A DNA stretch of 64,000 nt from positions 1-64,000 of the forward strand of contig WPIF01000011.1 of the NCBI GenBank assembly GCA_009773185.1. The letters are read 5' to 3'. This DNA comes from Nitrospirota bacterium. Lineage in GTDB: Bacteria > Nitrospirota > Thermodesulfovibrionia > Thermodesulfovibrionales > UBA1546. Under the pieces are notes generated by a model. The model made no database searches. It had not been told where the DNA came from and worked only from the letters and a program-made list of their open reading frames with translations. Each line of letters starts with the position of its first letter. Position 1 is the stretch's first letter. Below, piece after piece: positions 37,482-54,633 of the stretch. The position numbers and the translations under genes were made by a program.

Positions 37482-39734
37482 TTGGAAGAAAAAAAATTTA
37501 TCTTCCCGGGCATCAGGCGGTTATTTATCTACGTAATGGAGAAATATTGCCCCTTCAATATAAAGACTTTCCAGATATTAGTTGGCATAATTACCGCAAT
37601 ACTCTTGGGAACTGTTTTAGTCCTCGGCTGGACATCCTCTAAAAAGATAAGGGAGGTTGTGACTAAAGACTTTAACCAGCAGCAGTTAGTCCTCGCGCAG
37701 CACGCAGCCAGGCAGATAGAAAGTAATCTGAATATTCTTAAAAAAGAATTATCATTGCTCGGCCTCTCTCCGTCCATACAGTATTTTGAAAAAGTCTGGT
37801 TAGGCAAGAGGATGGAAATCACTTTCTCGCGCATCAAAGAGGAAGGGATATTAGAGATAAGATACATTGAATCCAAAGGTTCAAGGATGCATCTGGTGGA
37901 TAGTCATGGATACCAGACTGCACAGATGTACCCTGAAGATTTGTCTTATCTTGAATGGGCGCGTCAAATAAAAAATAAAAACAATACGTTGATAAGTGAA
38001 GTTTCTCCTGTTATCCATGGGAACGACTACCAAAAGCTTATAATGAAGATGGTGGTGCCTGTCCGGCAGATTTCTGTTGATGAGACCAATCCGGTGGCAA
38101 CCAATAAGTTTTCCGGGGTACTGCTGTTTATTGTTGATGCAACTGGTTTGATAGAGAACATAACAAAAGGAATAAAATCAGGGAAAACCGGTTATGCCTG
38201 GGTTATGGATGAAAAGGGAAGTTTTCTCTATCACCCTGAAATGGAATTTATAGGGAAAAATGCCTTTGAAGCGCGAAAGGCAAAAAAGCCTACCATATCG
38301 TTTGCGCGGATTAATGAGATACAAAAAGAGATGATGCTAACAGGGAAAGAAGGCATGAGCTGGTATATATCCGGATGGCATAGAGGGCAGGAAGGCGAGA
38401 TGAAAAAATTAATTGCCTATACTCCTATTCACCTTACAGTATCAGAAAAGCCGCTATGGTCGGTTGCAGTTGTAGCTCCGGTAAGCGAAGTGGAAGATGC
38501 GATCCATTCAATCCAGATCCGCCAATTTTCACTTCAGGCGATAATCATCGTTGTCATTTTACTCGGGGGGGTAACGATTATCTTTTTGATACTTAACTGG
38601 TCAACTGCAATGGAACAGGAAGTCGAAAGGAAAACAGTAGAACTTAAAAAATCAGAGCAGAGATATAAGTCGCTCGTAGAAAATGCCGAGGACATCATCT
38701 TTGCGGTGGATCAGCATGGGAACTACCTTTCCATAAATAAATTCGGCGCCAGGTTTTTTAATAAGAAACCCGAGAATATCATTGGGAAAAATATGTCAGA
38801 AATACTTTCATGGCCCACTGCAGAAGAACTGGCAATAATGATTCAGGAGGTATTTAATACTAAGGAAAGCAGGCAGATTACACATCCTCTTAAAATCGGA
38901 GAGCATGTATACTGGCTTAATACCAATCTCAGAAGGCTTTGGGATGAAGAGGGCAATATTTATGCAGTATTGGGCATTTCAAGAGATATTACCGAGAGAA
39001 AAAAGATGGAGGAACAGATGTTTCACACAGAAAAACTTGCTTCTGTAGGCACTCTATCTGCAGGTGTGGCGCATGAAATAAACAATCCATTGGCAATAAT
39101 ACTCGGGTTTACAGATTTATTGCTTGAAAAAACACCCCAAAACTCTGAGTCATATGAAACATTGAAGACTATAGAGAAACAGGGGCTTAATGCCAAGAGA
39201 GTTGTGGAAAATCTGTTAAGTTTTACCAGATTTTCAGAGCATAAAGAAGAAAATATGGATATAAATAAGAACATAGAAGCTGTGCTGGCTGTTGTGGGGA
39301 ATACCCTGTCTATTAACAAAATTAAAGTGCAAAAAAAATTATCAGATTTGCCGGTTCAGGTCAAAGGCAATGCCGGAGAATTACAACAGGTTTTCTTCAA
39401 TATAATCAATAATGCCGTATCAGCCATGAAAGGCGGCGGGGATTTGACCATTTCTACAAGGTATGTGGATGAGGGCAGAAATGTTGAAATAAAAATCTCG
39501 GATACAGGCATCGGAATAAAAAAAGAGCATAGCACAAAAATATTTGATCCCTTGTTTACAACAAAGAAGGTCGGCGAAGGAACAGGCCTGGGTCTTTTTG
39601 TTTCTTATGGAATTATAACAAAACATGGTGGTACAATAACCTTCGAAACAAGGACTGCTGAGGAAGCAAAGGAGACCGGAACAAGTTTTATAATAACCTT
39701 GCCGGCAGTAAAGACAGTGAATAGTGAACAGTGA
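37482..39734 (+). CDS. Cache-PAS sensor histidine kinase (kinase 3)
   Basis: 750 aa from TTG 37482. TM1 (about 32-52), extracytoplasmic double-Cache-like sensor (about 55-335; GKTGYAWVMDEKGSFLYHPE and WYISGWHRGQEGEMKKL), TM2 (about 345-368), PAS (about 385-505: YKSLVENAEDIIFAVDQHG), HisKA (SAGVAHEINNPLAIILG) and HATPase (DTGIGIKKEHSTKIF, GEGTGLGLFVSYGI). Its C-terminal end (KTVNSEQ) is read from a TAGTGAACAG-type repeat. No response regulator with output follows directly, only two single-domain receivers; it lies divergent to kinase 1. Confidence 0.93.
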   Translation: MEEKKFIFPGIRRLFIYVMEKYCPFNIKTFQILVGIITAILLGTVLVLGWTSSKKIREVVTKDFNQQQLVLAQHAARQIESNLNILKKELSLLGLSPSIQYFEKVWLGKRMEITFSRIKEEGILEIRYIESKGSRMHLVDSHGYQTAQMYPEDLSYLEWARQIKNKNNTLISEVSPVIHGNDYQKLIMKMVVPVRQISVDETNPVATNKFSGVLLFIVDATGLIENITKGIKSGKTGYAWVMDEKGSFLYHPEMEFIGKNAFEARKAKKPTISFARINEIQKEMMLTGKEGMSWYISGWHRGQEGEMKKLIAYTPIHLTVSEKPLWSVAVVAPVSEVEDAIHSIQIRQFSLQAIIIVVILLGGVTIIFLILNWSTAMEQEVERKTVELKKSEQRYKSLVENAEDIIFAVDQHGNYLSINKFGARFFNKKPENIIGKNMSEILSWPTAEELAIMIQEVFNTKESRQITHPLKIGEHVYWLNTNLRRLWDEEGNIYAVLGISRDITERKKMEEQMFHTEKLASVGTLSAGVAHEINNPLAIILGFTDLLLEKTPQNSESYETLKTIEKQGLNAKRVVENLLSFTRFSEHKEENMDINKNIEAVLAVVGNTLSINKIKVQKKLSDLPVQVKGNAGELQQVFFNIINNAVSAMKGGGDLTISTRYVDEGRNVEIKISDTGIGIKKEHSTKIFDPLFTTKKVGEGTGLGLFVSYGIITKHGGTITFETRTAEEAKETGTSFIITLPAVKTVNSEQ
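39711..39734. repeat. TAGTGAACAG-type repeat forming the end of kinase 3
   Basis: AAGACAGTGAATAGTGAACA(GTGA) supplies the last seven codons and stop of the gene. The antisense end of the PEP-synthase-like gene (40865-40888) has nearly the same sequence. Confidence 0.6.
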
Positions 39735-39851: not shown

Positions 39852-40274
39852 ATGGCTGAGAAGATATTGATCGTAGATGATGAGCCGGATATGTTAAAGC
39901 TCCTGAACATGATTATTAAAGAAAAGACACCTTATGGAACAATAACAACCAATAATCCTTTAGAAGCGCTTGAGTTGTCAAAACAGGGAGGGTTTGACCT
40001 TGTCATAGCAGATTTAAAAATGCCGGGGCTTGACGGTATGGAACTCCTTGAAGCTATTAAGCGCATGGATAAAGACATCCCGGTAATAATCATAACTGCT
40101 TATGGCACAGTTGAATCTGCTGTTGAGAGCATGCAAAAAGGCGGTTTTGACTTTATCACAAAACCGTTCAGGAAAGAGCAGATACTCTATACCATAGATA
40201 AGGCATTGAAAATGGTAAAGCTCAACAAAGAAAACAAGATGCTGAAGGAACAGTTAAAGGCTAAAGAGAAATAA
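39852..40274 (+). CDS. Stand-alone response-regulator receiver protein 1
   Basis: 140 aa: one receiver domain (LIVDDEPDMLKLLNM at the start, phosphosite D in LVIADLKMPGLDG, T in IIITAYG, K in FITKPFRKEQ) and a short C-terminal helix. No output domain, so it probably relays phosphate. Ribosome site GGAGGGG. About half identical to the next gene, indicating duplication. Confidence 0.93.
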   Translation: MAEKILIVDDEPDMLKLLNMIIKEKTPYGTITTNNPLEALELSKQGGFDLVIADLKMPGLDGMELLEAIKRMDKDIPVIIITAYGTVESAVESMQKGGFDFITKPFRKEQILYTIDKALKMVKLNKENKMLKEQLKAKEK

Positions 40275-40448: not shown

Positions 40449-40871
40449 ATGTCAGAAAAAATATTAATTATAGATAACGACCCTGATATGGTGACGCTTT
40501 TAAGCATGCTCATCAGGGAAAAGACCCCTTATGAAACAGAGGTTACGAATAACCCGCTGGAAGCAATCGAAATGGTCAAACAAGACGGTTTTTCAGTTGT
40601 TATTGCAGAGATGAAAATGCCTGTAATGGATGGGATTGAAATCCTTGAGGCTGTAAAGCATATCGCCGAAGACATCCCTGTTATTATTCTATCTGCATAT
40701 GGTGATGTTGAGTCAGCCCTCGAGGCAATGCATAAGGGAGCTTTTGACTATTTAGCAAAGCCGTTCAGGAAGGAGCAGATACTGTTTGCGATAGAAAACG
40801 CTTTGGATTCCGTAAGGCTTAAAAAAGAAAACGGGAGGCTTAAAAAGCAGTTGCTGACAACTGTTCACTGA
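40449..40871 (+). CDS. Stand-alone response-regulator receiver protein 2
   Basis: 140 aa receiver (LIIDNDPDMVTLLSMLIRE; putative phosphosite region VVIAEMKMPVMDG; S in IILSAYG; K in YLAKPFRKEQ). The canonical phospho-Asp in receiver 1 (IADLKMP) is Glu here (IAEMKMP), and the second acidic position is Asn-Asp. Phosphorylation is therefore doubtful and the protein may be locked active-like. It is transcribed from the sigma-54 promoter at 40389 and its last codons (LTTVH) overlap the end of the convergent gene by 7 nt. Confidence 0.88.
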   Translation: MSEKILIIDNDPDMVTLLSMLIREKTPYETEVTNNPLEAIEMVKQDGFSVVIAEMKMPVMDGIEILEAVKHIAEDIPVIILSAYGDVESALEAMHKGAFDYLAKPFRKEQILFAIENALDSVRLKKENGRLKKQLLTTVH

Positions 40872-40887
40872 CAACTGTTCACTGTCT
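40857..40887. repeat. ACAACTGTTCACTG repeat at convergent gene ends
   Basis: Two direct copies of ACAACTGTTCACTG. One strand provides the last codons and stop of receiver protein 2, the other those of the PEP-synthase-like gene (KTVNSCQ). Confidence 0.65.
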
Positions 40888-43504
40888 TTATATGGTCTCT
40901 GATAAAATCCTCAATAAACATATCGGTAACGTCATCATTATACATGACCATATCGAGCTGTTTTGTGTAAGCTGTCAGCTTTCCCATTATCTCTAATTTC
41001 TCTTCAATGGTTGGCTGTTTATATTTGGTAATTATTGCATTTACTACATCTTCAGTAACATTGACCTTAAAATCCATCTTTTTTAAAATCTCTTTAATCA
41101 GCCTCACCCTTCTTAATTTTCTGTCCCTGACAGCGCCTCCCCCTTTAAAGAAGAATTTTATGTAGTTGTCATTCATGTTTTCTCCTGCATAAGCCTCTAC
41201 CATCGAGAAATGATAGCCAAGCCTTATACTGAAGTTCATATAATTGCCTGACAGGATTGCAAAGCTCTTTTCTCCCATTGCGTAAAGTTGCCCTTCGGGT
41301 ATTGATGCTGATTGCGCAACCATTCCCATAAAACCCTTAACATCAGCAGCTCTTGGTTCAGGCCATTTCATGCGCTTCATGCCTTTAAGAAATGCAGAAA
41401 ATGGTATCGAATATATATCCTCCGGAGCAGCCTTTTTTACATTATCTTTGATGCCATTGCCGTCAATATCTATCATGTTTGCATCTATGGGGATCCCTGC
41501 TCTCAGAGCAATTGGTTGCGGCCATGCTTCCTCGCCTGACTCTGCAAAGGCAACAGCGGACATCAGGTCTTCAAATGAGGTAATATCATGCCCTTTGCTT
41601 GTCCTGAAAATCATGGCCATTGCCATTTCATGAGCAAACCTGGTTATATCATGAAAAGTTTTACAGAGCCCGGGCTTAAAATTCTCAGCATCGGGATCTA
41701 TTAAATTTAAAGGGACAACCCATTTTAATGTCTTTTCCAGCGTCATAAACAGGCGGGTATTTTTAAAGGGCTCTCTTTTCTTTGAAGAATACTCAAGGAG
41801 TTCCCTGACTTTGCCCTCGTAGACATTGCAGTTTATTGCATCCACTGTTATCTCCTGCCCGTCACGGATGACGGATGTTGCTGTTTCCGCATCAAGAATT
41901 GCGGGAATCTGATATTCCCTTGCCAGCGATGCCATGTGGCCTGTTACTCCGCCGACGTCTGTAATAATAGCAGAGGCCTTATTCATGGCAGTTACGAATT
42001 TGGTTGATGTATGTTTTGCAACCAGCACAGCGCCGTCAGGGAAATCTTTTAATCCTTCATCATCTTTAAGCACAAAGGCCCTGCCAAAGCCAATTCCCTT
42101 GCATGCAATCACCCCTTTATCTAAAAGGACATTATAACCCTGCATTCTTCGGGGAAGCTTAAATGCTGCGGGCTGGATATCACACGTTCTCAACGGACGG
42201 GTTTGCAGGATATATATCTGATTATCCCTGTCAACCGCCCATTCAATATCCTGGGGCCTGCCATAGTGGTCTTCCAAAGCAACGGCATGATCGGATAAAA
42301 TATTTATCAGTTCAACGGGCAGGCATGATTTGCTCTTCATGCTGCCGGGGATATCTGTCTGTTTGATATTTCCTTCAGAAGAACATATTACCATCGTATT
42401 TTGTTCGGCCACTCTTCTCTCTATGATGGCCCTGGGTTCTCGTGAGACAATATAGGAATCAGGGGTTATTGACCCGTCAACAACAGACATCCCAAGGCCC
42501 CACACAGCATTGATTATGAGTATATCTTTTCCGGGGTCATTCGGGTCCCTTGTATACATAACCCCGCCTGCCAGGGCATCTACCATTCTTAAAATACCAA
42601 CAGCCATTACCATCTCATCTTCTGAAAATCCTTTTGTCCTGTAGTAAAATATTGCCCGTGGTGTAAATAAACTCGCAATAACTTCTTTGTATTTCTGCGT
42701 GATTAAATCTGCCGGCACATTGAGAAAGGTGGAATATTGCCCTGCAAAGCTGAATTCACCGTCTTCGTGAATAGCGCTGCTCCTCACAGACACCATTAAT
42801 CCTGAAGACCGAGGGCTGAGGGCTGAGGGCTGAGAGCTCAAACTTACAACTGCATTTTTTATGGCATTTTCCAGGTCCTGCGGCATTTCAGCCTTTATTA
42901 TCATATCCTGTATGGCTCTGCTCACCTCATTAAGCTCTTCGATGTTATTTATATCCAGCGGCAATAGTTTTTTATTTATTTTCTCAATCAGCCTGTTATG
43001 CTCCATAAATCTTTTGAATGAATATGTGGTAATAGCAAAGCCGTCAGGGGTTGGAAGATTGAGCCGGTTTTTAATTTCCCCTAAATGTGCGATTTTGCCG
43101 CCTGCTATGTTTGACATCTTGCCTGTAAGATTCAATAATGGTATGGTAAGGCCGCTGGCCGGGACAACTGGCCTGCGGTTTAAGCTCTCTTTTATCTCTT
43201 TATATATATCATCATAGGTTTTGTAAAGTTCTTTGTATCTGCCGTGAGCAAGGGTGTTCAGATCTTCAATAATACTCAGGACGCCATCAGCAATTAATTT
43301 AGTGTTTGTCTCAAGATAATGCCGGTCAAACAGATATTCCCCTGAAAGTTTTTCTTCCATGTCTGCCATAAGTTCAAGGACATTGTTGTTTTTTGTGAGC
43401 AGGTTTTGAAATGTGTCATATTTTTTTTTAATGGCTTCTCTGAATTTGCTGCGCTTAGAGTCTTTTTTAGAGGATTTTTTGAATATTTTTAAAAGGTTAC
43501 GCAT
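40865..43504 (-). CDS. PEP-synthase-like protein with atypical C-terminal half
   Basis: 879 aa. N-terminal helical region (about 1-125), ATP-grasp PPDK-N domain (about 130-450: GGKIAHLGEIKNRLNLPTPDG, VRSSAIHEDGEFSFAGQY, DIEWAVDRDNQIYILQTRPL) and phosphohistidine swivelling domain (about 480-570) with the carrier His in DVGGVTGHMASLARE. The PEP/pyruvate TIM barrel of true PEP synthase is not recognisable. Instead the C-terminal 300 residues are unlike it and contain SFEDLMSAVAFAESGEE (about 640-660), close to the motif in neighbouring Usp-like proteins. A heptamer-repeat insertion lies at about 222-232. It may transfer phosphate to another acceptor, as related dikinase-like proteins do (inference). 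Confidence 0.8.
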   Translation of the reverse strand: MRNLLKIFKKSSKKDSKRSKFREAIKKKYDTFQNLLTKNNNVLELMADMEEKLSGEYLFDRHYLETNTKLIADGVLSIIEDLNTLAHGRYKELYKTYDDIYKEIKESLNRRPVVPASGLTIPLLNLTGKMSNIAGGKIAHLGEIKNRLNLPTPDGFAITTYSFKRFMEHNRLIEKINKKLLPLDINNIEELNEVSRAIQDMIIKAEMPQDLENAIKNAVVSLSSQPSALSPRSSGLMVSVRSSAIHEDGEFSFAGQYSTFLNVPADLITQKYKEVIASLFTPRAIFYYRTKGFSEDEMVMAVGILRMVDALAGGVMYTRDPNDPGKDILIINAVWGLGMSVVDGSITPDSYIVSREPRAIIERRVAEQNTMVICSSEGNIKQTDIPGSMKSKSCLPVELINILSDHAVALEDHYGRPQDIEWAVDRDNQIYILQTRPLRTCDIQPAAFKLPRRMQGYNVLLDKGVIACKGIGFGRAFVLKDDEGLKDFPDGAVLVAKHTSTKFVTAMNKASAIITDVGGVTGHMASLAREYQIPAILDAETATSVIRDGQEITVDAINCNVYEGKVRELLEYSSKKREPFKNTRLFMTLEKTLKWVVPLNLIDPDAENFKPGLCKTFHDITRFAHEMAMAMIFRTSKGHDITSFEDLMSAVAFAESGEEAWPQPIALRAGIPIDANMIDIDGNGIKDNVKKAAPEDIYSIPFSAFLKGMKRMKWPEPRAADVKGFMGMVAQSASIPEGQLYAMGEKSFAILSGNYMNFSIRLGYHFSMVEAYAGENMNDNYIKFFFKGGGAVRDRKLRRVRLIKEILKKMDFKVNVTEDVVNAIITKYKQPTIEEKLEIMGKLTAYTKQLDMVMYNDDVTDMFIEDFIRDHIKTVNSCQ
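42811..42836. repeat. GGGCTGA heptamer array inside the PEP-synthase-like gene
   Basis: Three perfect tandem GGGCTGA units plus partial ends. On the coding strand they give SSQPSALSPRSSG between NAVVSL and LMVSVRSSA, where the family has no insertion of this kind that I recall. Confidence 0.75.
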
Positions 43505-43593: not shown

Positions 43594-44340
43594 ATGCAAA
43601 TGGATGAAATAATTAACAGAGAAAACCCTCAAAAGTTATATGTACAGCTTGAGGAAATAATCAAAAAGAAAATTGAGGATAAAGAATGGGCCGTTGGTTC
43701 CAAAATACCTACAGAAGAAGAACTCTGCAAGATTTATGGTGTGAGCAAGGCGCCGGTGAGGGCGGCCATTCTGGAGCTCGTGCGGCAGGGTTATTTAATG
43801 AGACAGCAGGGCAAGGGCACCTTTGTATGCAAGCGCATCATATCCGAGGGATTGACGATGCATACAAGTTTCAGGGAACTTATGCTTGAAGCAGGCGTGA
43901 GTTCTTCAACAAAGGTTCTCGCGCAGACAGTGATGATGCCTGTAGATGATATTGATGTTAAGCTTAATGTCCCTGAAGATACGCACCTCATTTACGTAAA
44001 AAGATTAAGGCTGGTTGAAGATGAACCGGTGCTGCTTCAGGAAGCTTACATCCCGCATAATATTTGCCCCCAATTATTAAGAGAAGATATTGAAAATAAT
44101 TCCCTTTTCGAGCTTATTGAGAAAAAATATGGAATCAAGATAACAAAAATCAAAGATTATATTGAAGTTACAACACCCGCTGCTGATGAAGTAAAGCTTC
44201 TGGGCCTTTCAGGCTGCTCAGGAGCGCTTCTTCTTGAACAGCATTTTTATTCAGGAGACACCCAGATAATGTATATGCGTTCCGTTAAAAGGCCGGATAG
44301 ATTCAGATTTTTAATAGAGCTTGAAAGAAGAGCAGCATAA
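43594..44340 (+). CDS. GntR/HutC-family regulator with UTRA domain (second)
   Basis: 248 aa. GntR winged helix (NPQKLYVQLEEIIKKKIEDK, TEEELCKIYGVSKAPVRAAI, GKGTFVCK) and UTRA domain (about 85-245; LVEDEPVLLQEAYI, SGCSGALLLEQHFYSGD). Related to the GntR at 29456-30205 in architecture. ATG 43594 or 43600. Given the overlapping operator it most likely represses its own operon (CBS protein, SLC13 transporter and perhaps the genes beyond) until an effector binds. Confidence 0.92.
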   Translation: MQMDEIINRENPQKLYVQLEEIIKKKIEDKEWAVGSKIPTEEELCKIYGVSKAPVRAAILELVRQGYLMRQQGKGTFVCKRIISEGLTMHTSFRELMLEAGVSSSTKVLAQTVMMPVDDIDVKLNVPEDTHLIYVKRLRLVEDEPVLLQEAYIPHNICPQLLREDIENNSLFELIEKKYGIKITKIKDYIEVTTPAADEVKLLGLSGCSGALLLEQHFYSGDTQIMYMRSVKRPDRFRFLIELERRAA

Positions 44341-44357: not shown

Positions 44358-44879
44358 ATGTCAAAAGGTAAAGTTGCAAAGGATGTAATGATTGATGTCT
44401 TTGAGTTCCCGCATATCCCTTACTGGTTCTCAATACGCCAGGCCATAGGGATTGCGAAAAAGTCTTTGTTAAGCAGTGAGAAGTGCCATCACCCGATGGC
44501 AGTGCTGGTTTTTGACGAGAAGTATAACCTTCTCGGCACCTTAAGCCTGAAGGATATCCTGAGGGGCCTTGAGCCAAAGTTTTTAAAGCCGACTACCAAG
44601 GCACAGGTTCCGGCAGAAGATGAGTCTGGGCTTTCATTGCTGTGGGACACTCTCTTTGACAAAGGAGCAAAAGAGGCAGCAGAAAAACCTGTCAGCGAGG
44701 TGATGGTCCCGGCAAAGTTTTTTGTTCAGCCGGATGAGCCTATTACAAAGGCCGCATATCTGATGGTCCACAATGATCTGGCTTTGCTGCCTGTTTTGGA
44801 AAACAAGAAAAAATTTGTTGGGCTTGTAAGGATAAGGGAAGTATTCGATGAACTATCAAGCTCAATTTTGGAAGGATAG
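44358..44879 (+). CDS. CBS-domain-pair protein
   Basis: 173 aa with two CBS motifs (about 20-75: HPMAVLVFDEKYNLLGTLSLKDIL; and 115-170: PITKAAYLMVHNDLALLPVLENKKKFVGLVRIREV). CBS pairs bind adenine nucleotides and regulate channels or enzymes. It sits between the GntR regulator and the SLC13 transporter, with AAAGGAGGG ribosome site, and probably regulates that transporter according to energy state (inference). Confidence 0.9.
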   Translation: MSKGKVAKDVMIDVFEFPHIPYWFSIRQAIGIAKKSLLSSEKCHHPMAVLVFDEKYNLLGTLSLKDILRGLEPKFLKPTTKAQVPAEDESGLSLLWDTLFDKGAKEAAEKPVSEVMVPAKFFVQPDEPITKAAYLMVHNDLALLPVLENKKKFVGLVRIREVFDELSSSILEG

Positions 44880-44891
44880 GAGGATATCACA

Positions 44892-46415
44892 ATGGCAGAT
44901 AAAGATATAAAAACTTCACAGGGCTTGCCTGAACCGCCCCCGGAAATATTAGTTGCAGCGCCATCAAAAATTCCATTTGACTGGAAACGTGTAATGTTTA
45001 TTTTATTGGGATTAGGCATTTTCGTATGGATTTACTTTATGCCTGCTTGGAGTGATGCTGTTGATCCGAGCGGTAAAGCATTTCCTTTATCAAGAGAGGG
45101 AAAAGGTGCCATAGCGCTCTTTATACTGGCAGGGATCTGGTGGGTATTTGAGGTCCTGCCTATAGGCGTAACAGCTATTGCTATAGGTGTTTTCCAGGCA
45201 CTGTTCAGTATCCGTTCTGCAAAGGATGCCTTTAAGGATTTTATGGATCCCTCTGTTATGTTCATTTTTGGTTCTGTTGTTGTGGGGCTTGCCTTCTCAA
45301 CCACAGGCCTGACAAAAAGGCTTGCATATAAAATGCTGGCAGTGGTAGGGGAAAGAACAAGCATGATTCTGCTCGGAGCGCTTGTGGTTACAGCAGGGCT
45401 TGCGCATCTTATGGCGCACACAGCAGCAGCAGCAACTGTTTTTCCAATACTCTTAGCAATTTATGCCCTTTATGGCGAAGGTGACAAGCAGACAAACTTC
45501 GGGAAAGCGCTCTTTATCGGTATGGCCTATGCCGCAGGCGCCGGAAGCATTATCACATTCTTAGGCTCTGCCCGCGCAGCAGCAGGCGCAGGAATGTTTG
45601 CAGAATTCACAGGCAGGAACATTGGTTTCTTTGAACTTACAAAATATATGTTCATTATCGGCTGGGTCATGGTACTTCTAATCTGGGGATACCTGATGAT
45701 ATTCCTGAAACCGGAAAAGAAGGTCATCTCAGGGCTGAAGGAAAAGGTTAAAAAGCTTTCCAAAGAACTTGGCCCGATGACGAGAAACGAAAAGTTCGTC
45801 ATCATTACTGTTTTGGCTGTTGTAGTTCTTATGTCAATGCAGTCTTTCGTGCCTGCCTTAAAGACGATGGACAGGGCAACCTTAATACTCATTTCAACAC
45901 TCATGTTCTTTATTTTCAAGATATTGACCGTAAAAGAGCTTGAAGAGATTCCATGGAATATCATTCTCCTCTTCAGCGGCGCTATGAGTATAGGTTTCTG
46001 TCTCTGGAAAACAGGAGCTGCCCAGTGGATGGCAGTCAACTGGCTTATCATGTTCCAGAACGCACACTGGCTGGTCTTTGTTTTGAGCATAGCAACCTTT
46101 GTTTTAATCATGACAAACTTTATCATGAATGTTGCGGCAATCGCGATTTCGCTGCCTGTGTCCCTGGTTATTGCACAATATCTGGGTGTTGCGCCGGATG
46201 TAATCTTTTATGCATCATTGGTTACAGCCGGAATGCCGTTTGTCCTTCTTATCGGCGCTGCGCCGAATGCAATAGCTTATGAATCAAAACAATTTACATC
46301 AGGGGAGTTTTTCAAACACGGGCTTCTGTTAAGCGTTATCCTGATTGCATTTCTTGGATTGGCGATCAAGACATTCTGGCCGATGTTCGGGATGGCGACA
46401 CTGATTCCTAAGTGA
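44892..46415 (+). CDS. SLC13/DASS-family sodium:anion symporter
   Basis: 507 aa with about 12 transmembrane helices. Family features: ALFILAGIWWVFEVLPIGVTAI, MAHTAAAATVFPILLAIY (substrate/Na+ loop) and NFIMNVAAIAISLPVSLVI (second S-N-T-like loop, here with altered residues). Members transport di/tricarboxylates, sulfate or related anions with Na+. The S-N-T motifs for carboxylate transport are not intact, so the anion could be inorganic. The next gene is an LCIB-type carbonic anhydrase homologue, which raises bicarbonate as a candidate (inference). Confidence 0.9.
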   Translation: MADKDIKTSQGLPEPPPEILVAAPSKIPFDWKRVMFILLGLGIFVWIYFMPAWSDAVDPSGKAFPLSREGKGAIALFILAGIWWVFEVLPIGVTAIAIGVFQALFSIRSAKDAFKDFMDPSVMFIFGSVVVGLAFSTTGLTKRLAYKMLAVVGERTSMILLGALVVTAGLAHLMAHTAAAATVFPILLAIYALYGEGDKQTNFGKALFIGMAYAAGAGSIITFLGSARAAAGAGMFAEFTGRNIGFFELTKYMFIIGWVMVLLIWGYLMIFLKPEKKVISGLKEKVKKLSKELGPMTRNEKFVIITVLAVVVLMSMQSFVPALKTMDRATLILISTLMFFIFKILTVKELEEIPWNIILLFSGAMSIGFCLWKTGAAQWMAVNWLIMFQNAHWLVFVLSIATFVLIMTNFIMNVAAIAISLPVSLVIAQYLGVAPDVIFYASLVTAGMPFVLLIGAAPNAIAYESKQFTSGEFFKHGLLLSVILIAFLGLAIKTFWPMFGMATLIPK

Positions 46416-46521: not shown

Positions 46522-47238
46522 GTGAAATTTGATGATGTCCTGAAAAAGTATTTTGACAGAGTATATACAGAAGTGGATTTTGTCAAAAAAACATATTCCT
46601 CTTTGAAAGATTTAGGCTTTAATGATGACAATACAATTGCCGCTACATGCATCTGCAGGGATGAGATATCACAAACTCTAAGGAGCATAATCAAGCATAT
46701 GTGGGGAGAGGCATTTAACCTATCGAGCCTTGCCGGGATGTTCTTTGCAGGCAAGACAGGGTTGTCTGCTGCAATGCATCATGCGCCTGTTGAAGATGGA
46801 AAAGAAAGATATGTTTTTTACGCCCTGCCTCATATTGCAATCGCCTCTGACGGTAAGCCCGGCGTATGCAGGCGTGAAGGCAGGGAAGGCGCATCTACTG
46901 CCTGCGGCGCGCTTGTTGCATTTCAGAAAGAGATGGCAGGGGGCAGGTTAAATCTTGCGTTAGACAATGAGGATGTTGAGCAGAGCCTTCTTAAAACGAG
47001 GTTGCTCGGAGAAATCCCCTATGGCAAGGTGCCGGATCTCATTGAGCTGACAAAGATAACCCAGACAGCTATTCAGGCAGACCTCGAGCGCACACTTAAT
47101 AAGGTTGTAAATAAGGACAGAAGCAACTATGCAGTAATTACAGGCATTCAGATACACGGCCCGGAAAACAATTATGTCTGGCCTGCAGAATGTTATGCGA
47201 TTGTAAATGGGAAACAAATACAGCTGAAGGTTGAATAG
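46522..47238 (+). CDS. LCIB/LCIC-type (theta-class) carbonic anhydrase homologue
   Basis: 238 aa from GTG 46522 with GGAGG upstream. I recognise the pattern of the limiting-CO2-inducible protein B/C family: TCICRDEISQ (C45, R46, D47), FNLSSLAGMFFAGKTGLSAA, MHHAPVEDGKERYVFYALPH, REGREGASTACGAL (C128), LLKTRLLGEIPYGKVPDLIE and GIQIHGPENNYVWP. In this family two Cys and one His hold zinc and an Asp-Arg pair gates the site; those residues are present. It would interconvert CO2 and bicarbonate. Neighbours are an SLC13 transporter and two NhaD antiporters, suggesting a sodium-linked inorganic-carbon function. Confidence 0.85.
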   Translation: MKFDDVLKKYFDRVYTEVDFVKKTYSSLKDLGFNDDNTIAATCICRDEISQTLRSIIKHMWGEAFNLSSLAGMFFAGKTGLSAAMHHAPVEDGKERYVFYALPHIAIASDGKPGVCRREGREGASTACGALVAFQKEMAGGRLNLALDNEDVEQSLLKTRLLGEIPYGKVPDLIELTKITQTAIQADLERTLNKVVNKDRSNYAVITGIQIHGPENNYVWPAECYAIVNGKQIQLKVE

Positions 47239-47275: not shown

Positions 47276-47323
47276 ATGAAAACAAAATATTTAATACATC
47301 AACGAGGAGGACTAAAACAATGA
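47276..47323 (+). CDS. 15-aa leader peptide coupled to nhaD copy 1
   Basis: ATG 47276 with GGAGGAATT upstream encodes MKTKYLIHQRGGLKQ and stops at TGA 47321-47323, overlapping the nhaD ATG (ATGA). Within it is the GAGGAGG ribosome site for nhaD. It may be a translational-coupling leader; chance is not excluded. Confidence 0.4.
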   Translation: MKTKYLIHQRGGLKQ

Positions 47324-48603
47324 TGACCATGGTCGCAGTTGTCTTTGTGCTCGCCTACGCTACTATCGCTCTCGAGCATCCTATTAAAATCAACAAGTCT
47401 GCTACAGCTCTAATCGCCGCAGGCTTGATGTGGACTTTGTACTCTTTCGCAAGCCCGCTCGGCGCGGAAGGCGTAAGCCACCAGCTTACTGAAAAGCTGG
47501 CCGAGACAGCAGCCATTGTATTTTTCCTTATCTGCGCCATGACTATCGTTGAGGTAACAGACTCGCACGGCGGTTTCGAGGTCATCACCTCGCGCATTAA
47601 GGCAACAAAGCTCACGAGCCTGCTCTGGATAATCGGCTTCATCGCCTTTTATCTCTCTGCGATCCTTGACAACATGACAACAACAATCGTGATGGTTGCC
47701 CTGATGAAGCGGTTGCTTAAGGAACATAAACAGCGCTTATTCTTTGCGGGTATTATCGTAATCGCAGCCAATGCAGGCGGCGCATGGACTCCAATCGGTG
47801 ATGTGACAACAACAATGCTCTGGATTGGCGGACAGATCACAACAGGCGCTATCATGAAGGGACTCTGGATCGCATCAATGATAAATTTACTGATCCCTCT
47901 TATCATTGCCTCCTTTATGCTCAAAGGCAATGTTGTGCCACCGGATAAGGTTGAAAACGGCGGGGCCGCCAACACCACCCAGTTTGAAAAGACATTAATG
48001 TTCTTCATGGGGATAGGCGCCTTAATCTTCGTTCCGATATTCAAGGCTGTTACGCATCTGCCCCCGTATCTTGGTATTCTACTGGCGCTCGGAGTGCTTT
48101 GGCTTGCTGGTAATATCCTGCATCGCAAAAAGTCTGCGGAAGAGAAGGAACATCTTACTCTGACCAAGGCCCTCAGACGCATTGAGATGGCATCAGTGGT
48201 TTTCTTTATTGGTATCCTGCTTGCTGTGGCTACACTTTCTGCCAACGGCATGCTTCCATCCTTGGCACAATGGCTCGATGTCAAGATTGGCAACCAGTCT
48301 GTAATCGTTATTATCATCGGCCTTGTTTCTGCAGTAGTTGATAATATTCCTTTGGTAGCGGCTTCAATGGGCATGTACCCGCTGGCCCAGTTCCCTCCGG
48401 ACTCGTTTCTTTGGGAATTCATGGCATACTGCGCTGGCACAGGCGGTTCGATACTTATCATCGGTTCAGCCGCAGGTGTAGCTGCGATGGGACTGGAGAA
48501 GATAGAGTTTTTCTGGTACGCCCGGCGTATTGGGCCGCTTGCCTTTGCCGGGTATTTTGCGGGTGTGGCAGCGTACATAATACAATATAATCTGTTGCAC
48601 TGA
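47320..48603 (+). CDS. nhaD: NhaD-family Na+/H+ antiporter, copy 1
   Basis: 427 aa, about 12 transmembrane helices. NhaD/ArsB-type signatures: FYLSAILDNMTTTIVMVALM, VIAANAGGAWTPIGDVTTTML and SAVVDNIPLVAASMGMY, with the membrane Asp and Asn residues used in cation exchange. NhaD exchanges Na+ (or Li+) for H+. About 94% identical (roughly 26 substitutions by eye) to the next copy. Ribosome site GAGGAGGAC. Confidence 0.95.
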   Translation: MMTMVAVVFVLAYATIALEHPIKINKSATALIAAGLMWTLYSFASPLGAEGVSHQLTEKLAETAAIVFFLICAMTIVEVTDSHGGFEVITSRIKATKLTSLLWIIGFIAFYLSAILDNMTTTIVMVALMKRLLKEHKQRLFFAGIIVIAANAGGAWTPIGDVTTTMLWIGGQITTGAIMKGLWIASMINLLIPLIIASFMLKGNVVPPDKVENGGAANTTQFEKTLMFFMGIGALIFVPIFKAVTHLPPYLGILLALGVLWLAGNILHRKKSAEEKEHLTLTKALRRIEMASVVFFIGILLAVATLSANGMLPSLAQWLDVKIGNQSVIVIIIGLVSAVVDNIPLVAASMGMYPLAQFPPDSFLWEFMAYCAGTGGSILIIGSAAGVAAMGLEKIEFFWYARRIGPLAFAGYFAGVAAYIIQYNLLH

Positions 48604-48638
48604 GGTTTTTGTCTAGTTTAGGTATTATGTATTGAAAG

Positions 48639-48644
48639 TATAAT
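48639..48644 (+). promoter_or_regulatory. -10 box TATAAT before nhaD copy 2
   Basis: TATAAT with a weak -35 (TTTAGG, 16-nt spacer). The surrounding sequence GTATTATG-TTGA--TATAA reappears at 50043-50062 after nhaD copy 2, a trace of the duplication unit. Confidence 0.35.
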
Positions 48645-48661
48645 TTTGTCAGATTATTAAC

Positions 48662-48699
48662 GCTCAGCTTTGCTGAGCAAACCCGATTTTATCGGGTTT
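48662..48699 (+). terminator. Double hairpin between nhaD copies
   Basis: GCTCAGC-TTT-GCTGAGC followed directly by AAACCCGAT-TTT-ATCGGGTTT. Either a terminator for copy 1 or an attenuator in the leader of copy 2; only a short U-run (GTTTATC) follows. Confidence 0.55.
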
Positions 48700-48745
48700 A
48701 TCTTAGGTGGAGACTGTCAGAAAGGAATAAAGGAGGATTCAAATC

Positions 48746-50029
48746 ATGATGACCATGGTCGCAGTTGTTTTCGTGCTCGCCTACGCTACTATCGCTCTCG
48801 AGCACCCGTTTAAAATTAACAAATCTGCCACGGCGCTGTTAGCCGCAGGCATAATGTGGACTCTGTACTCTTTCGCAAGCCCGCTCGGAGCAGAAGGCGT
48901 AACCCACCAACTCACAGAAAAGCTGGCCGAGACAGCGGCAATCGTATTCTTTCTTATCTGCGCCATGACCATTGTCGAGGTAACCGACTCGCACGGCGGT
49001 TTCGAGGTCATCACCTCTCGCATTAAGGCAACAAAGCTAACGAGCCTGCTCTGGATAATCGGTTTTATCGCCTTTTACCTGTCTTCCATTCTCGACAACA
49101 TGACAACAACAATTGTTATGGTCGCTTTGATGAAGCGGTTGCTTAAGGAACATAAACAGAGGCTCTTCTTTGCGGGTATTATTGTAATCGCTGCCAATGC
49201 AGGAGGCGCATGGACCCCTATCGGTGATGTGACAACAACAATGCTCTGGATAGGAGGACAGATCACAACAGGAGCTATCATGAAGGGACTCTGGATTGCT
49301 TCCATGATTAATTTACTGGTCCCTCTTATCATCGCCTCTTTCTTCCTCAAGGGAAATGTCGTACCTCCGGACAAGGTCGAGAACGGCGGACCCACCAACA
49401 CCTCTCAATTCGAAAAGACCCTGATGTTTTTTATGGGCATGGGTTCCTTAATATTCGTTCCGATATTCAAGGCAATTACGCATCTGCCTCCATATCTCGG
49501 TATTCTGCTGGCGCTCGGTGTGCTTTGGCTTGTTGGTAATATACTTCATCGCGAAAAGCCTGCGGAAGTGAAGGAACATCTCACTTTGACCAAGGCCCTC
49601 AAGCGCATTGATATGGCGTCAGTTGTTTTCTTTATCGGTATTTTGCTTGCCGTGGCTACACTTTCTGCCAATGGCATGCTCCCTGCGCTGGCGCAGTGGC
49701 TCGATGTTAAGATCGGCAACCAGTCTATAATCGTTATTATCATCGGACTTTGTTCTGCTGTCATAGATAATATTCCTCTGGTGGCAGCTTCGATGGGCAT
49801 GTACCCGCTTAGCCAGTTTCCTGCGGACTCCTTTCTCTGGGAGTTCATGGCATACTGCGCTGGCACAGGAGGTTCGATACTTATCATTGGTTCAGCCGCA
49901 GGTGTGGCTGCTATGGGACTGGAGAAGATAGAGTTCTTCTGGTATGCCCGGCGCATTGGGCCGCTTGCCTTTGCAGGGTATTTCGCAGGTGTGGCTGCCT
50001 ACATTATCCAATACAGGCTGTTGCACTGA
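48746..50029 (+). CDS. nhaD: NhaD-family Na+/H+ antiporter, copy 2
   Basis: 427 aa, same architecture and motifs as copy 1 (SSILDNMTTTIVM, NAGGAWTPIGDVTTT, SAVIDNIPLVAASMGMY). Substitutions are mostly conservative and spread over loops and helix ends (e.g. NNGGAANTTQ region GGPTNTSQ; HRKKSAEE to HREKPAEV). Separate ribosome site AAAGGAGG. Two nearly identical antiporters in a row imply a dosage need or division of labour in sodium export. Confidence 0.95.
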   Translation: MMTMVAVVFVLAYATIALEHPFKINKSATALLAAGIMWTLYSFASPLGAEGVTHQLTEKLAETAAIVFFLICAMTIVEVTDSHGGFEVITSRIKATKLTSLLWIIGFIAFYLSSILDNMTTTIVMVALMKRLLKEHKQRLFFAGIIVIAANAGGAWTPIGDVTTTMLWIGGQITTGAIMKGLWIASMINLLVPLIIASFFLKGNVVPPDKVENGGPTNTSQFEKTLMFFMGMGSLIFVPIFKAITHLPPYLGILLALGVLWLVGNILHREKPAEVKEHLTLTKALKRIDMASVVFFIGILLAVATLSANGMLPALAQWLDVKIGNQSIIVIIIGLCSAVIDNIPLVAASMGMYPLSQFPADSFLWEFMAYCAGTGGSILIIGSAAGVAAMGLEKIEFFWYARRIGPLAFAGYFAGVAAYIIQYRLLH

Positions 50030-50644: not shown

Positions 50645-51643
50645 ATGTTTCTCTGGCTTGGCTTCATAGTCTGCACATCTTTAATCGTTTATTCAGGCAC
50701 TAAGCTTTCCAAATACGGCGACATAATCGCCGAGAAGACGGGGCTCGGAAGGACGTGGATAGGCGTTGTGCTCATGGCATCCGTGACGTCTCTCCCTGAG
50801 CTTGTTACCGGGATTAGCTCTGTTACTTACGCGGATGTGCCTGACATCGCGGCAGGGGATGTGCTTGGAAGTTGTGTATTTAACATGCTCATACTTGCCT
50901 TTCTCGATGCTATTCACCATCCTATGCCGATTTCTGCAAAGGCACATCACGGGCATATCCTGTCTGCCGGTTTCGGAATACTTCTTCTCGGTATGATTGC
51001 CATAAGCCTGTTTTTAGGAAACCAAATCCCTCAGATAGGATGGATTGGGACATACAGTCTCTTCTTTATTTTTATCTATTTTATAGCAATGAAACTGGTC
51101 TACTCTTACGAGAAAAGACAGATCGCCGAATTTGTAAAGGAAATGGCTGTTGACTTGAAATATAAAGACATCTCTACAAAAACCGTTGTCTTAAATTATT
51201 GTATTAATGCATTTGCTGTCATTATAGCTGCCATATTTCTGCCCGGGATTGGTGAAGGCATAGCAGAAATAACAGGACTTGGACAGACCTTTGTAGGCAA
51301 TATCTTTATAGCTATTTCAACGTCGCTGCCGGAGGTCGTGGTCTCTGTTGCCGCCGTAAGGATGGGAGCGATAGATCTGGCAATTGGCAATCTGTTCGGA
51401 AGTAATATCTTCAATACACTCATCCTTGCCCTCGACGATATCTTTTTCATTAAAGGCCCGCTGCTTTCCTTTGTCAATTCGGGTCATATAATCTCTGCGC
51501 TGTCCGCTATTGTAATGACTGCTGTTGCGATTATCGGTTTGACCTACCGTGCTGAAAAGAAAAAACTGTTTCTCGCGTGGGATTCGATAGGCATCCTGTT
51601 TGTGTATATAGTCAACCTGATGCTGCTCTATAGAATCAGGTAG
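50645..51643 (+). CDS. CaCA-family (YrbG-like) Na+/Ca2+ exchanger
   Basis: 332 aa, about 10 transmembrane helices in two halves. The duplicated alpha-repeats are clear: ASVTSLPELVTGI...GDVLGSCVFNMLIL and AISTSLPEVVVSV...GNLFGSNIFNTLIL, with the ion-coordinating Glu of each S-L-P-E. Exchanges Na+ for Ca2+ in homologues. Fits the sodium theme of the neighbourhood (SLC13, NhaD). Confidence 0.95.
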   Translation: MFLWLGFIVCTSLIVYSGTKLSKYGDIIAEKTGLGRTWIGVVLMASVTSLPELVTGISSVTYADVPDIAAGDVLGSCVFNMLILAFLDAIHHPMPISAKAHHGHILSAGFGILLLGMIAISLFLGNQIPQIGWIGTYSLFFIFIYFIAMKLVYSYEKRQIAEFVKEMAVDLKYKDISTKTVVLNYCINAFAVIIAAIFLPGIGEGIAEITGLGQTFVGNIFIAISTSLPEVVVSVAAVRMGAIDLAIGNLFGSNIFNTLILALDDIFFIKGPLLSFVNSGHIISALSAIVMTAVAIIGLTYRAEKKKLFLAWDSIGILFVYIVNLMLLYRIR

Positions 51644-52502: not shown

Positions 52503-52561
52503 TGTCACCCTGAACTTGTTTCAGGGTCTAAAAGAGATGCTGAAACGAGTTCAGCATGACA
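52503..52561. repeat. Bipartite TGTCA-hairpin repeat, variant (CCTGAAC/GCTGAAAC)
   Basis: TGTCA-CCCTGAA-CTTG-TTTCAGGG, spacer, GATGCTGAA-ACGAG-TTCAGCAT-GACA. Same bipartite design as 19783 and 39766 but different arms. It runs into the apparent upstream start of the TauE frame, which is therefore spurious. Confidence 0.7.
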
Positions 52562-52600
52562 ATGGAAAAAGTAACAAAAATTAAAAGGAGGATGAATCAA

Positions 52601-53896
52601 ATGGGATTTGGAAGACGTATGTATGAGTTTTTGAAGATGGCGTCCGTTGCTCACGCCAAATGGGACTATGAAGTCTCGATGAGTATCTTAAAGAACCGGA
52701 AAAAGATGCTGATACTTTTGGCTCTGCTTTTGCCGGTTCTTGCAGTAGGCCTGATTGAAGCAGGAGATATGATAGGCGGGAAAACCGCTTATGCCCCTGC
52801 GCATTATTCAAACCTGATATTTGTTGTTTCAATAGCAGTGGGCCTTGCTGCCGGCCTTATAACAGGCTGTATAGGTGCAGGAGGAGGCTTTATTATCACG
52901 CCTGCATTGATGGCAGCCGGTGTTAAGGGAATACTTGCAGTCGGGACAGATGTTTTTCACATTTTTGCCAAGGCAATTATGGGAACCACGGTACATAAAA
53001 AACTCGGCAATGTCTCGGTTAAGCTCGCTGCAGCCTTTCTTGTAGGCTCTGTCGGCGGCACATTCATAGGCGGCGCCATAAACAAAGGGCTATACAATAA
53101 AGACCCTTTGCTGAGCGAGGCATTTATCAGTACAGTTTACGCTGTATTGCTCGGGTTTCTTGGTTTCTATGCATTAGCTGACTTTTTGAAATCCAGGAAG
53201 GCCTCAAGCAGCGCGAGCAGCGGCGGCCATGATGCGCACGGCGGGCCAACAGGCACAACTGAGTTTGCGCTTAAATTACAAAAAGTAAATATTCCGCCTA
53301 TGATAACTTTTGACGAAGATTTTGGCGGAAGAAAGATATCATGGCTTTTTGTGGCAATAGGCGGCCTGATTGTCGGAATGCTGGCTGCAATTATGGGTGT
53401 CGGCGGCGGTTTTGTTACCTTCCCCATGTTTGTTTACATCTTTGGTGTATCAACAGCAACAACAGTCGGAACAGATATTTTTCAGATTATCTTTACGGCA
53501 GGCTTTGCATCCATAGCCCAATATGCTATTTACGGATATGTGTTTTATACGCTTGCTATTGGAATGCTGCTTGGCTCGCTTATCGGCATTCAGGTAGGCG
53601 CGCTTACAACAAAGGTTGTTAAAGGCATTCACATCAGGGGATTTTACGCCATGTCTATTATTGCCGGCTTTATAAACAGGGTTACAACGCTGCCCAAGAA
53701 GATGACCGAGCTTGAGGTCATAAATATGCCCAAGTCTGTTACTACGGCAATAGAGAATGTCGGCAATATCATATTCTGGATTGTTGTAGCTGCTTTTGGT
53801 TTCTGGATTATCAGCAAGTTTATAGCAAATATCGGTACATTAAGGAGCGAGGAAGATTATGTAGCTCCTGTGCTTGTGAAAGAGGAGGCAAAATGA
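52601..53896 (+). CDS. TauE/SafE-family transporter with cytoplasmic N-terminal extension
   Basis: 431 aa from ATG 52601 (AAAAGGAGG upstream). A 45-residue N-terminal segment (YEFLKMASVAHAKWDYEVSM, then SILKNRKKMLIL) precedes TM1. Its spacing (M-x-x...A....E..M.ILK.RK..LL) resembles the motif region of the neighbouring Usp-like proteins (FEDIMAAITFAEAGEHEKAK, LLKGRKTVLL). Membrane halves carry GCIGAGGGFIITPAL and IMGVGGGFVTFPMFVYIFG, with VGTDVFHIFAKAIMG and VGTDIFQIIFTAGFA. Coupled by ATGA to the next gene. Confidence 0.9.
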   Translation: MGFGRRMYEFLKMASVAHAKWDYEVSMSILKNRKKMLILLALLLPVLAVGLIEAGDMIGGKTAYAPAHYSNLIFVVSIAVGLAAGLITGCIGAGGGFIITPALMAAGVKGILAVGTDVFHIFAKAIMGTTVHKKLGNVSVKLAAAFLVGSVGGTFIGGAINKGLYNKDPLLSEAFISTVYAVLLGFLGFYALADFLKSRKASSSASSGGHDAHGGPTGTTEFALKLQKVNIPPMITFDEDFGGRKISWLFVAIGGLIVGMLAAIMGVGGGFVTFPMFVYIFGVSTATTVGTDIFQIIFTAGFASIAQYAIYGYVFYTLAIGMLLGSLIGIQVGALTTKVVKGIHIRGFYAMSIIAGFINRVTTLPKKMTELEVINMPKSVTTAIENVGNIIFWIVVAAFGFWIISKFIANIGTLRSEEDYVAPVLVKEEAK

Positions 53897-54633
53897 TAAT
53901 AAGACATAAAAAACCATTCAGTGTGGGAGTTGTTTTTGCAATATCGTTTTTGGGTATTCTGCTTCTGATATTTTCACCCCTGTTCGGGAATGGCCTGAAC
54001 GGCCTTCAGTATGCAGACGACAGCTTTAATAAGCTTGCAAAGGGCTCCTCTTATTTTATCCCTAAGGTTGCCAAAGGCAATGAGAAGTTCGTGGGAAAGA
54101 CGTTCAGCGTAAGCATCAATATGAGCAAAGAGGGTGATAAGGCAGGAGATGCTGAAAAGAGGGCGGAACTGGCTTCCAGGGTATACACAACTGCAGGAGC
54201 TGTAACAGAGATTAAAGGCGCTGAATTAAAGATCGAAGGAGACCTTGGGAAAGTCCTTGAAGCAGCCTTGCAGGATTCTGATGCCATGTTTAAGAATGAA
54301 GGAGAAAAGATCAAGGCCAAATACGCAACTGACGATGAGAAAAAGATGTTCAGGCAATGGCATAACACTCTGACTAAGATAGACAAGGCATTCAAAAAAG
54401 ATAAGAAGTTTGAAGAGGCAGGCATTGTCTCTGAGGTAACTAAAAAGGCTGTGGAACCTGCCTATAACTTCTATCAGGTTGACGCGAATAAAGTGGCAGA
54501 CCATGCCGGTATGATGTCAGGCCTCCTTATCTTTTACGTTGCTTATACAATGTGGTGGGGATTTGCCATATTTTATATGTTCGAAGGGATAGGCCTTACC
54601 ATGAAAAAGGCAAAGGTCAGGAAAGAGGTATAG
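53893..54633 (+). CDS. TauE-coupled membrane-anchored protein of unknown function
   Basis: 246 aa. TM1 (about 10-31), an extracytoplasmic domain of about 170 residues rich in Lys/Glu/Ala (KTFSVSINMSKEGDKAGD, GAVTEIKGAELKIEGDLGKV, DAMFKNEGEKIKAKY) and TM2 (about 212-235, SGLLIFYVAYTMWWGFAIF). Start overlaps the TauE stop (ATGA). Probably a periplasmic partner of the transporter. I do not recognise the domain. Confidence 0.75.
   Translation: MIIRHKKPFSVGVVFAISFLGILLLIFSPLFGNGLNGLQYADDSFNKLAKGSSYFIPKVAKGNEKFVGKTFSVSINMSKEGDKAGDAEKRAELASRVYTTAGAVTEIKGAELKIEGDLGKVLEAALQDSDAMFKNEGEKIKAKYATDDEKKMFRQWHNTLTKIDKAFKKDKKFEEAGIVSEVTKKAVEPAYNFYQVDANKVADHAGMMSGLLIFYVAYTMWWGFAIFYMFEGIGLTMKKAKVRKEV

Follow-up and report, generated by a model that had tools for sequence, protein, structure and literature searches.

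A conserved cluster of an LCIB-type carbonic anhydrase homolog, a DASS transporter and Na+/H+ antiporters in Nitrospirota: a candidate sulfate-uptake module

Genes at the locus

The window analyzed here is a stretch of 64,000 nucleotides (positions 1 to 64,000 of contig WPIF01000011.1, assembly GCA_009773185.1) from a Nitrospirota bacterium of the order Thermodesulfovibrionales. At 46522..47238 on the plus strand it encodes an LCIB-type (beta-CA-like) carbonic anhydrase (CA) homolog of 238 amino acids, recognized by its PF18599 match, its fold and its invariant residues; the ORF begins with GTG, with GGAGG just upstream of the start. The gene is part of a cluster with the order GntR-CBS-DASS(SLC13)-LCIB-NhaD-NhaD. 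At the head of the cluster, directly upstream and absent from the gene list of the original prediction for this DNA, is a GntR-family regulator (43594..44340, +; NCBIfam GntR matches, syntenic). It is followed by a CBS-domain protein (44358..44879, +; PF00571), which adjoins DASS in most of the loci read and usually accompanies this subfamily of DASS, and by the DASS/SLC13 protein itself (44892..46415, +), a Na+-coupled anion symporter of a distinct subfamily as judged from PF00939, TIGR00785, fold and motifs. Downstream of LCIB lie two NhaD-type Na+/H+ antiporter genes (47320..48603 and 48746..50029, both +), each matching NF038006 with 168 bits (cut-off 80) and TIGR00775 with 387 and 384 bits, respectively, below its cut-off of 577. 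The tandem copies (47320-50029) share 94% identity at the protein level and 87% at the DNA level.

A Na+/Ca2+ exchanger family protein (50645..51643, +; PF01699 Na_Ca_ex, 112 bits) is encoded further on, and the SLC13 transporter, CBS protein, two NhaD antiporters and exchanger that the original prediction placed around LCIB are thus all present by Pfam or NCBIfam matches. Beyond these is a TauE/SafE (TSUP) anion transporter (52556..53896, +; PF01925) that recurs beside DASS, and a conserved protein with no Pfam match (53893-54633) that regularly follows TauE/SafE and has homologs in Thermodesulfobacterium. On the other side of the cluster, a divergent gene (40865..43504, -) for an 879-aa protein with Pfam PPDK_N and PEP-utilizers domains is kept beside the cluster in the synteny maps; the protein has no Pfam match for the PEP-binding domain and is conserved beside DASS in several phyla. 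A dCache-PAS histidine kinase (37482..39734, +; Pfam) and, by synteny, the response-regulator-like ORFs at 39852-40274 and 40449-40871 complete the conserved neighborhood.

The host genome (2.79 Mb, 44 contigs) has one LCIB gene, and its nearest named relatives are groundwater Nitrospirae/Thermodesulfovibrionia MAGs. Profile searches found both AprA and CdhC (CODH/ACS) in this genome, and at the thresholds used neither PF00484 (Pro_CA, the classical beta-CA) nor SulP had a match.

The LCIB homolog

Based on sequence and fold, the protein at 46522-47238 belongs to the LCIB/LCIC (beta-CA-like) family. The PF18599 (LCIB_C_CA) profile search, proposed as a check on the original identification, gave E 6.4e-59 and 199.4 bits, far over the cut-off of 25. 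In phmmer comparisons it matched Chlamydomonas reinhardtii LCIB (5k5w, E 2.4e-41) and LCIC (5b5x, E 6.7e-41), and the match to PtLCIB4 was weaker (E ~1e-16); by sequence, the protein is closer to CrLCIB/CrLCIC than to PtLCIB4. Its AlphaFold model (pLDDT 94.4) has the LCIB fold, aligning to 5k5w with Z 29.8 and rmsd 1.9 over 216 residues, versus Z of about 11-13 for beta-CAs, and this fold is common to LCIB/LCIC of Chlamydomonas and PtLCIB4 of diatoms (5k5w, 5b5x, 5b5y, 6kfs; Z 27.6-29.8).

The zinc and active-site residues of the algal and diatom family (Cys, His, Cys; Arg/Asp; the equivalents of His162 and Arg194) are all found in the window protein, which has 38% aligned identity to CrLCIB. 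Residues C45, R46, D47, E48, H87, H104, R118 and C128 are identical in 32/32 aligned homologs; pairwise alignment and residue numbering equate H87 and R118 with His162 and Arg194 of CrLCIB, and C45, H104 and C128 are presumably the zinc ligands. The original prediction of an LCIB homolog with the zinc Cys/His residues and a CRDE motif therefore holds; its ‘theta-class’ label was loose, and the part that stands is membership of the LCIB/LCIC (beta-CA-like) family. Unlike its algal and diatom relatives, this protein is bacterial, consists of a single short domain and has no pyrenoid setting; its gene adjoins those of ion transporters, in anaerobes that possess CODH/ACS and AprA.

Conservation of the gene neighborhood

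PF18599 matches are present in 59 of 395 Nitrospirota genomes. Members of the close DASS subfamily (47% identity or more, fragments included) occur in 36/395, all of them in the host’s class, with a clear gap below it (the next relatives are at 35% identity or less). DASS and LCIB are adjacent on one contig in 26 of the 28 class genomes that hold both; of the other two, G281 has 14 kb between the genes and in G299 the contigs are broken. Counted by distinct protein pairs, so that close relatives can both count, both genes point the same way in 39/39 non-redundant adjacent pairs from Nitrospirota, Thermodesulfobacteriota and Actinomycetota, with a median of 30 bp between them. An antiporter-type gene, classed from protein clusters with scanned representatives, is found within the next three genes in 32 of the 38 pairs having at least two downstream genes. 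Pairwise distances of DASS and LCIB are correlated (Mantel rho 0.31, a value reached in 4 of 2000 permutations). A chance neighborhood was rejected on the co-orientation of all 39 pairs across three phyla, and the LCIB-DASS-antiporter association, for which neighborhood statistics had been proposed, is not lost in other genomes.

The recurrent order, read from neighborhood maps built with a crude gene caller, is histidine kinase, response regulator, (divergent) PPDK_N protein, GntR, CBS, DASS, LCIB, antiporter. The families that fill the last slot are mutually unrelated: they include an NhaD about 90% identical to that of the window and, by Pfam, a CBS gene with a 456-aa CitMHS-like protein, a 578-aa CitMHS-like protein with a universal stress protein, and an Mrp operon. 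Two cultured bacteria, Thermodesulfobacterium thermophilum DSM 1276 and T. hveragerdense DSM 12571, also carry the DASS-LCIB pair, as do MAGs labeled Desulfobacterales or Thermodesulfobacteriota and others of Actinomycetota/Aquicultor.

Two further arrangements were seen. A RIFOXYD12 Deltaproteobacteria MAG (L104) has LCIB, GntR, CBS, two NhaD and two DASS pieces, rearranged, on one contig. Four loci (L085, L086, L088 and L090, in G096, G230, G205 and G136, respectively) carry parallel GntR-CBS-DASS’ operons that run into Mrp genes, the DASS’ having 26-29% identity to the window DASS.

Within the literature searched, this real and conserved module is undescribed: no description of an LCIB-DASS or LCIB-antiporter cluster was found in the portions of the open-licence PMC literature consulted. 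Excerpts of a paper on a serpentinite actinobacterium do not describe the cluster (PMC7325909), and excerpts of a Lost City paper report that Thermodesulfovibrionales reduce sulfate in alkaline fluids, and discuss beta-CA and SbtA for other MAGs (PMC9469722).

LCIB genes in other contexts

The neighbors of LCIB genes without an adjacent DASS were listed for 43 loci. In six of these loci LCIB is co-directional with, and close to, the last subunit of an Mrp-type operon (L070 by Pfam; L087, L126, L164, L166 and L167 by length or protein cluster), and in four it stands likewise near a Na+/Ca2+ exchanger (L047 by Pfam; L048, L146 and L150 by length or cluster). Other neighbors have no link to transport (acyl-CoA dehydrogenase, SAICAR synthetase, DUF3604, DNA ligase). 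LCIB is thus often, and not always, found beside cation antiporters or anion carriers.

Several loci have possible bicarbonate carriers as neighbors. One genome of the host’s phylum (G110, L032:8052-9868) has a Bestrophin_2 gene followed in the same direction, after 33 bp, by a divergent LCIB gene, a pair that recalls the LCIB-bestrophin partnership of algae. In a Kofleriaceae MAG (L161:5941-8720), 12 bp separate LCIB from a co-directional upstream gene for a SulP protein that has an EIIA domain; at L195:3587-7438, a SulP-STAS gene is followed in the same direction by a cytidylate-kinase-like gene and then by one for a remote LCIB-domain protein; and at L192 and L193 a 707-aa SulP with a cytidylate-kinase-like/response-regulator protein lies downstream of an LCIB-Mrp operon. 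The proximity to bestrophin and SulP favors a role of LCIB in dissolved inorganic carbon (DIC) metabolism and leaves the question of the DASS substrate unaffected.

The idea that LCIB replaces a beta-CA was rejected, since the complementarity with Pro_CA was not significant (9/33 LCIB-positive vs. 16/42 LCIB-negative genomes, p = 0.46).

The DASS transporter and its substrate

Profile and fold place the window transporter in DASS/SLC13. It matches PF00939 with 151 bits and TIGR00785 with 193.7 bits (just below the cut-off of 198.6), and it shares PF00939 and the fold with VcINDY, NaDC3, NaS1 and PHO90 (Z 42.1 vs. NaDC3, 38.8 vs. NaS1). The fold comparison does not discriminate among substrates, with NaDC3, NaS1, PHO90 and ArsB all matching. 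The subfamily differs from known DASS/SLC13 members in having a separate CBS partner gene and in its motifs, MAHT and FIMNV standing where VcINDY has SNT and SNT. The replacement of SNT/SNT by AHT and MNV argues against a dicarboxylate carrier of the VcINDY type, which was rejected, and not against DASS membership.

Within the subfamily, no difference in MAHT/FIMNV is tied to the presence of LCIB, and certain remote members that lack LCIB have a changed FIMNV. In the DASS tree, the proteins encoded next to LCIB are nested within those of LCIB-free loci, with up to 10 label changes, an upper figure because the ‘no LCIB’ label takes in a few loci that are cut at contig ends or have LCIB further off (L080, L081, L104, L079).

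The Thermodesulfobacteriota are informative here. The subfamily is present in 62 of 345 genomes (41-79% identity), and LCIB in only six of these 62, beside DASS in all six; the other 56 lack LCIB, which was found in 1 of 18 DASS-negative genomes. Across the 20 loci read, the typical arrangement is CBS-DASS close to two-component genes, and some loci have an NhaD/CitMHS-type gene directly after DASS. The antiporter and the CBS protein thus go with DASS. Where DASS stands alone (L072, L073, L074, L076-L078), no other CA was recognized in the position of LCIB; in G192, a Pro_CA gene is about 10 kb off on the DASS contig.

The distribution of DASS in the Thermodesulfobacteriota follows APS reductase, the co-occurrence looked for in a dissimilatory sulfate transporter. 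AprA was over the cut-off in 38/40 DASS-positive vs. 11/40 DASS-negative genomes (Fisher p = 2.6e-10), and CdhC, of the Wood-Ljungdahl pathway, was found in 33/40 vs. 29/40 (p = 0.42), p values that overstate the case because related genomes are not independent. This sample comprised 40 of the 62 DASS-positive genomes and 40 DASS-negative ones, of which 20 were the first negatives listed and 20 were taken by handle number. Within the host’s class, AprA does not discriminate (33/36 DASS-positive vs. 118/131 DASS-negative, E 1e-100, p = 1.0), as 151/167 genomes match at E 1e-100. Another 69 genomes of the phylum, outside that class, have an AprA match (E 1e-100, in some of them below the curated cut-off) and no member of the DASS subfamily, which indicates that DASS is not required for sulfur metabolism. 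No sat, apr or dsr gene was recognized beside DASS among the neighbors identified, a minority of the unclustered neighbors having been scanned. DASS as a replacement for SulP was rejected, no complementarity being seen (8/33 vs. 6/33).

A bicarbonate carrier working through LCIB should co-occur with LCIB or with CO2 fixation; subfamily-wide, neither association was found (LCIB in 6/62; CdhC as above). Together, the LCIB-free members, the tie to AprA, the constant motifs and the nested tree favor a single substrate throughout the core subfamily and a link with sulfur-oxyanion metabolism. Our best guess, ahead of bicarbonate, is sulfate, the simplest candidate, and the DASS protein is therefore probably not a new bicarbonate pump.

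The excerpts consulted of a sulfate-transporter survey (Marietou et al. 2018, PMC5840216) bear on this. They report no SulP in thermodesulfobacterial genomes or in the single Nitrospirae genome included, and describe a DASS ‘group Ci’ of putative sulfate-reducer transporters that is highly conserved in Firmicutes, Proteobacteria and Thermodesulfobacteria (PMC5840216). The taxonomic spread of group Ci fits that of the window subfamily, and LCIB or CBS partners are unmentioned in those excerpts; we infer that the two groups are the same.

Interpretation

We favor, at a probability of about one in two, the explanation that a predicted LCIB-type CA has been added to a Na+-coupled sulfate-uptake module of APS-reductase-bearing anaerobes. 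In this scheme, in which CA activity, sulfate as substrate, the direction of fluxes and the functional coupling are predictions, DASS with its CBS companion would use Na+ symport to take up an inorganic anion, for which sulfate is the likeliest candidate, and NhaD (elsewhere a CitMHS-like or Mrp antiporter) would move Na+ out and H+ in. A cytoplasmic LCIB would interconvert CO2 and HCO3-/H+ and thereby could buffer the proton flow of antiport and of sulfate reduction. It may also keep the CO2/HCO3- balance for the Wood-Ljungdahl pathway and carboxylases, meeting this demand where Pro_CA is missing.

The original prediction was of a Na+-driven bicarbonate module, of which the sodium-transport setting and the conserved association stand; bicarbonate transport by the SLC13 protein is not supported. 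Under that reading, DASS would be a Na+:HCO3- symporter, NhaD would renew the Na+ gradient, and LCIB would free CO2 from the HCO3- taken up for use in the Wood-Ljungdahl pathway, making this a module for the CO2 supply of autotrophs that do not use RuBisCO. The tight, operon-like DASS-LCIB pairing in three phyla is in its favor, as are the non-carboxylate site motif, the presence of CdhC in 74/75 class genomes examined (the host included), the lack of a SulP match in the host at the thresholds used, the bestrophin and SulP neighbors of LCIB elsewhere, and the possibility, raised in excerpts of a review of the DIC toolkit (PMC10880623), of undescribed DIC transporters in Wood-Ljungdahl organisms. 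However, LCIB is missing from 56/62 DASS-positive Thermodesulfobacteriota genomes, DASS tracks AprA and not CdhC, and its motifs are unchanged with LCIB; we consider the bicarbonate module unlikely and the weaker reading compared with the sulfate module. A broader version, which we hold as possible though rather unlikely, makes LCIB a modular partner of ion transporters (DASS with NhaD, CitMHS or Mrp; elsewhere bestrophin, SulP, Na+/Ca2+ exchangers or Mrp). In the DASS clade it would form, with a DASS that transports HCO3- (by itself, together with sulfate or in exchange for it), a DIC device that supplies the Wood-Ljungdahl pathway with CO2 where subsurface water is poor in it.

Two other explanations concern LCIB itself. 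That it is a housekeeping CA, co-regulated with the transport cluster and functionally uncoupled from it, would suit a host without Pro_CA and the occurrence of LCIB in other contexts, some unrelated to transport; we find it doubtful, given that LCIB-positive genomes are not significantly poorer in Pro_CA and that an identical gene order recurs in three phyla. That LCIB is a non-catalytic structural or sensing subunit, as proposed for CrLCIB/CrLCIC, draws on its nearest solved relatives: in the portions consulted of the study concerned, recombinant CrLCIB and CrLCIC have no CA activity though they keep the residues (PMC5876011). The invariance of the zinc and active-site residues in all 32 aligned homologs speaks against this option, which we judge quite improbable.

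SbtA/SbtB, BicA (SulP) and DAB are known bicarbonate/CO2 uptake systems. The window cluster resembles them in broad outline, a transporter being paired with a CA-like or regulatory protein; it differs in that the transporter is a DASS protein, the host lacks a SulP match and DIC transport is putative. DIC transporter families are covered in the DIC-toolkit review, where, by term count in the text available, DASS and SLC13 do not occur (PMC10880623).

A type of enzyme known chiefly from the CO2-concentrating mechanism of algae is now found in a conserved, co-directional cluster of anaerobic subsurface bacteria and cultured Thermodesulfobacterium. The cluster makes testable the question, posed in the excerpts of that review, of undescribed DIC transporters in Wood-Ljungdahl organisms (PMC10880623), and it equally offers a candidate sulfate carrier for the thermophilic sulfate reducers in which the survey excerpts report no SulP (PMC5840216).
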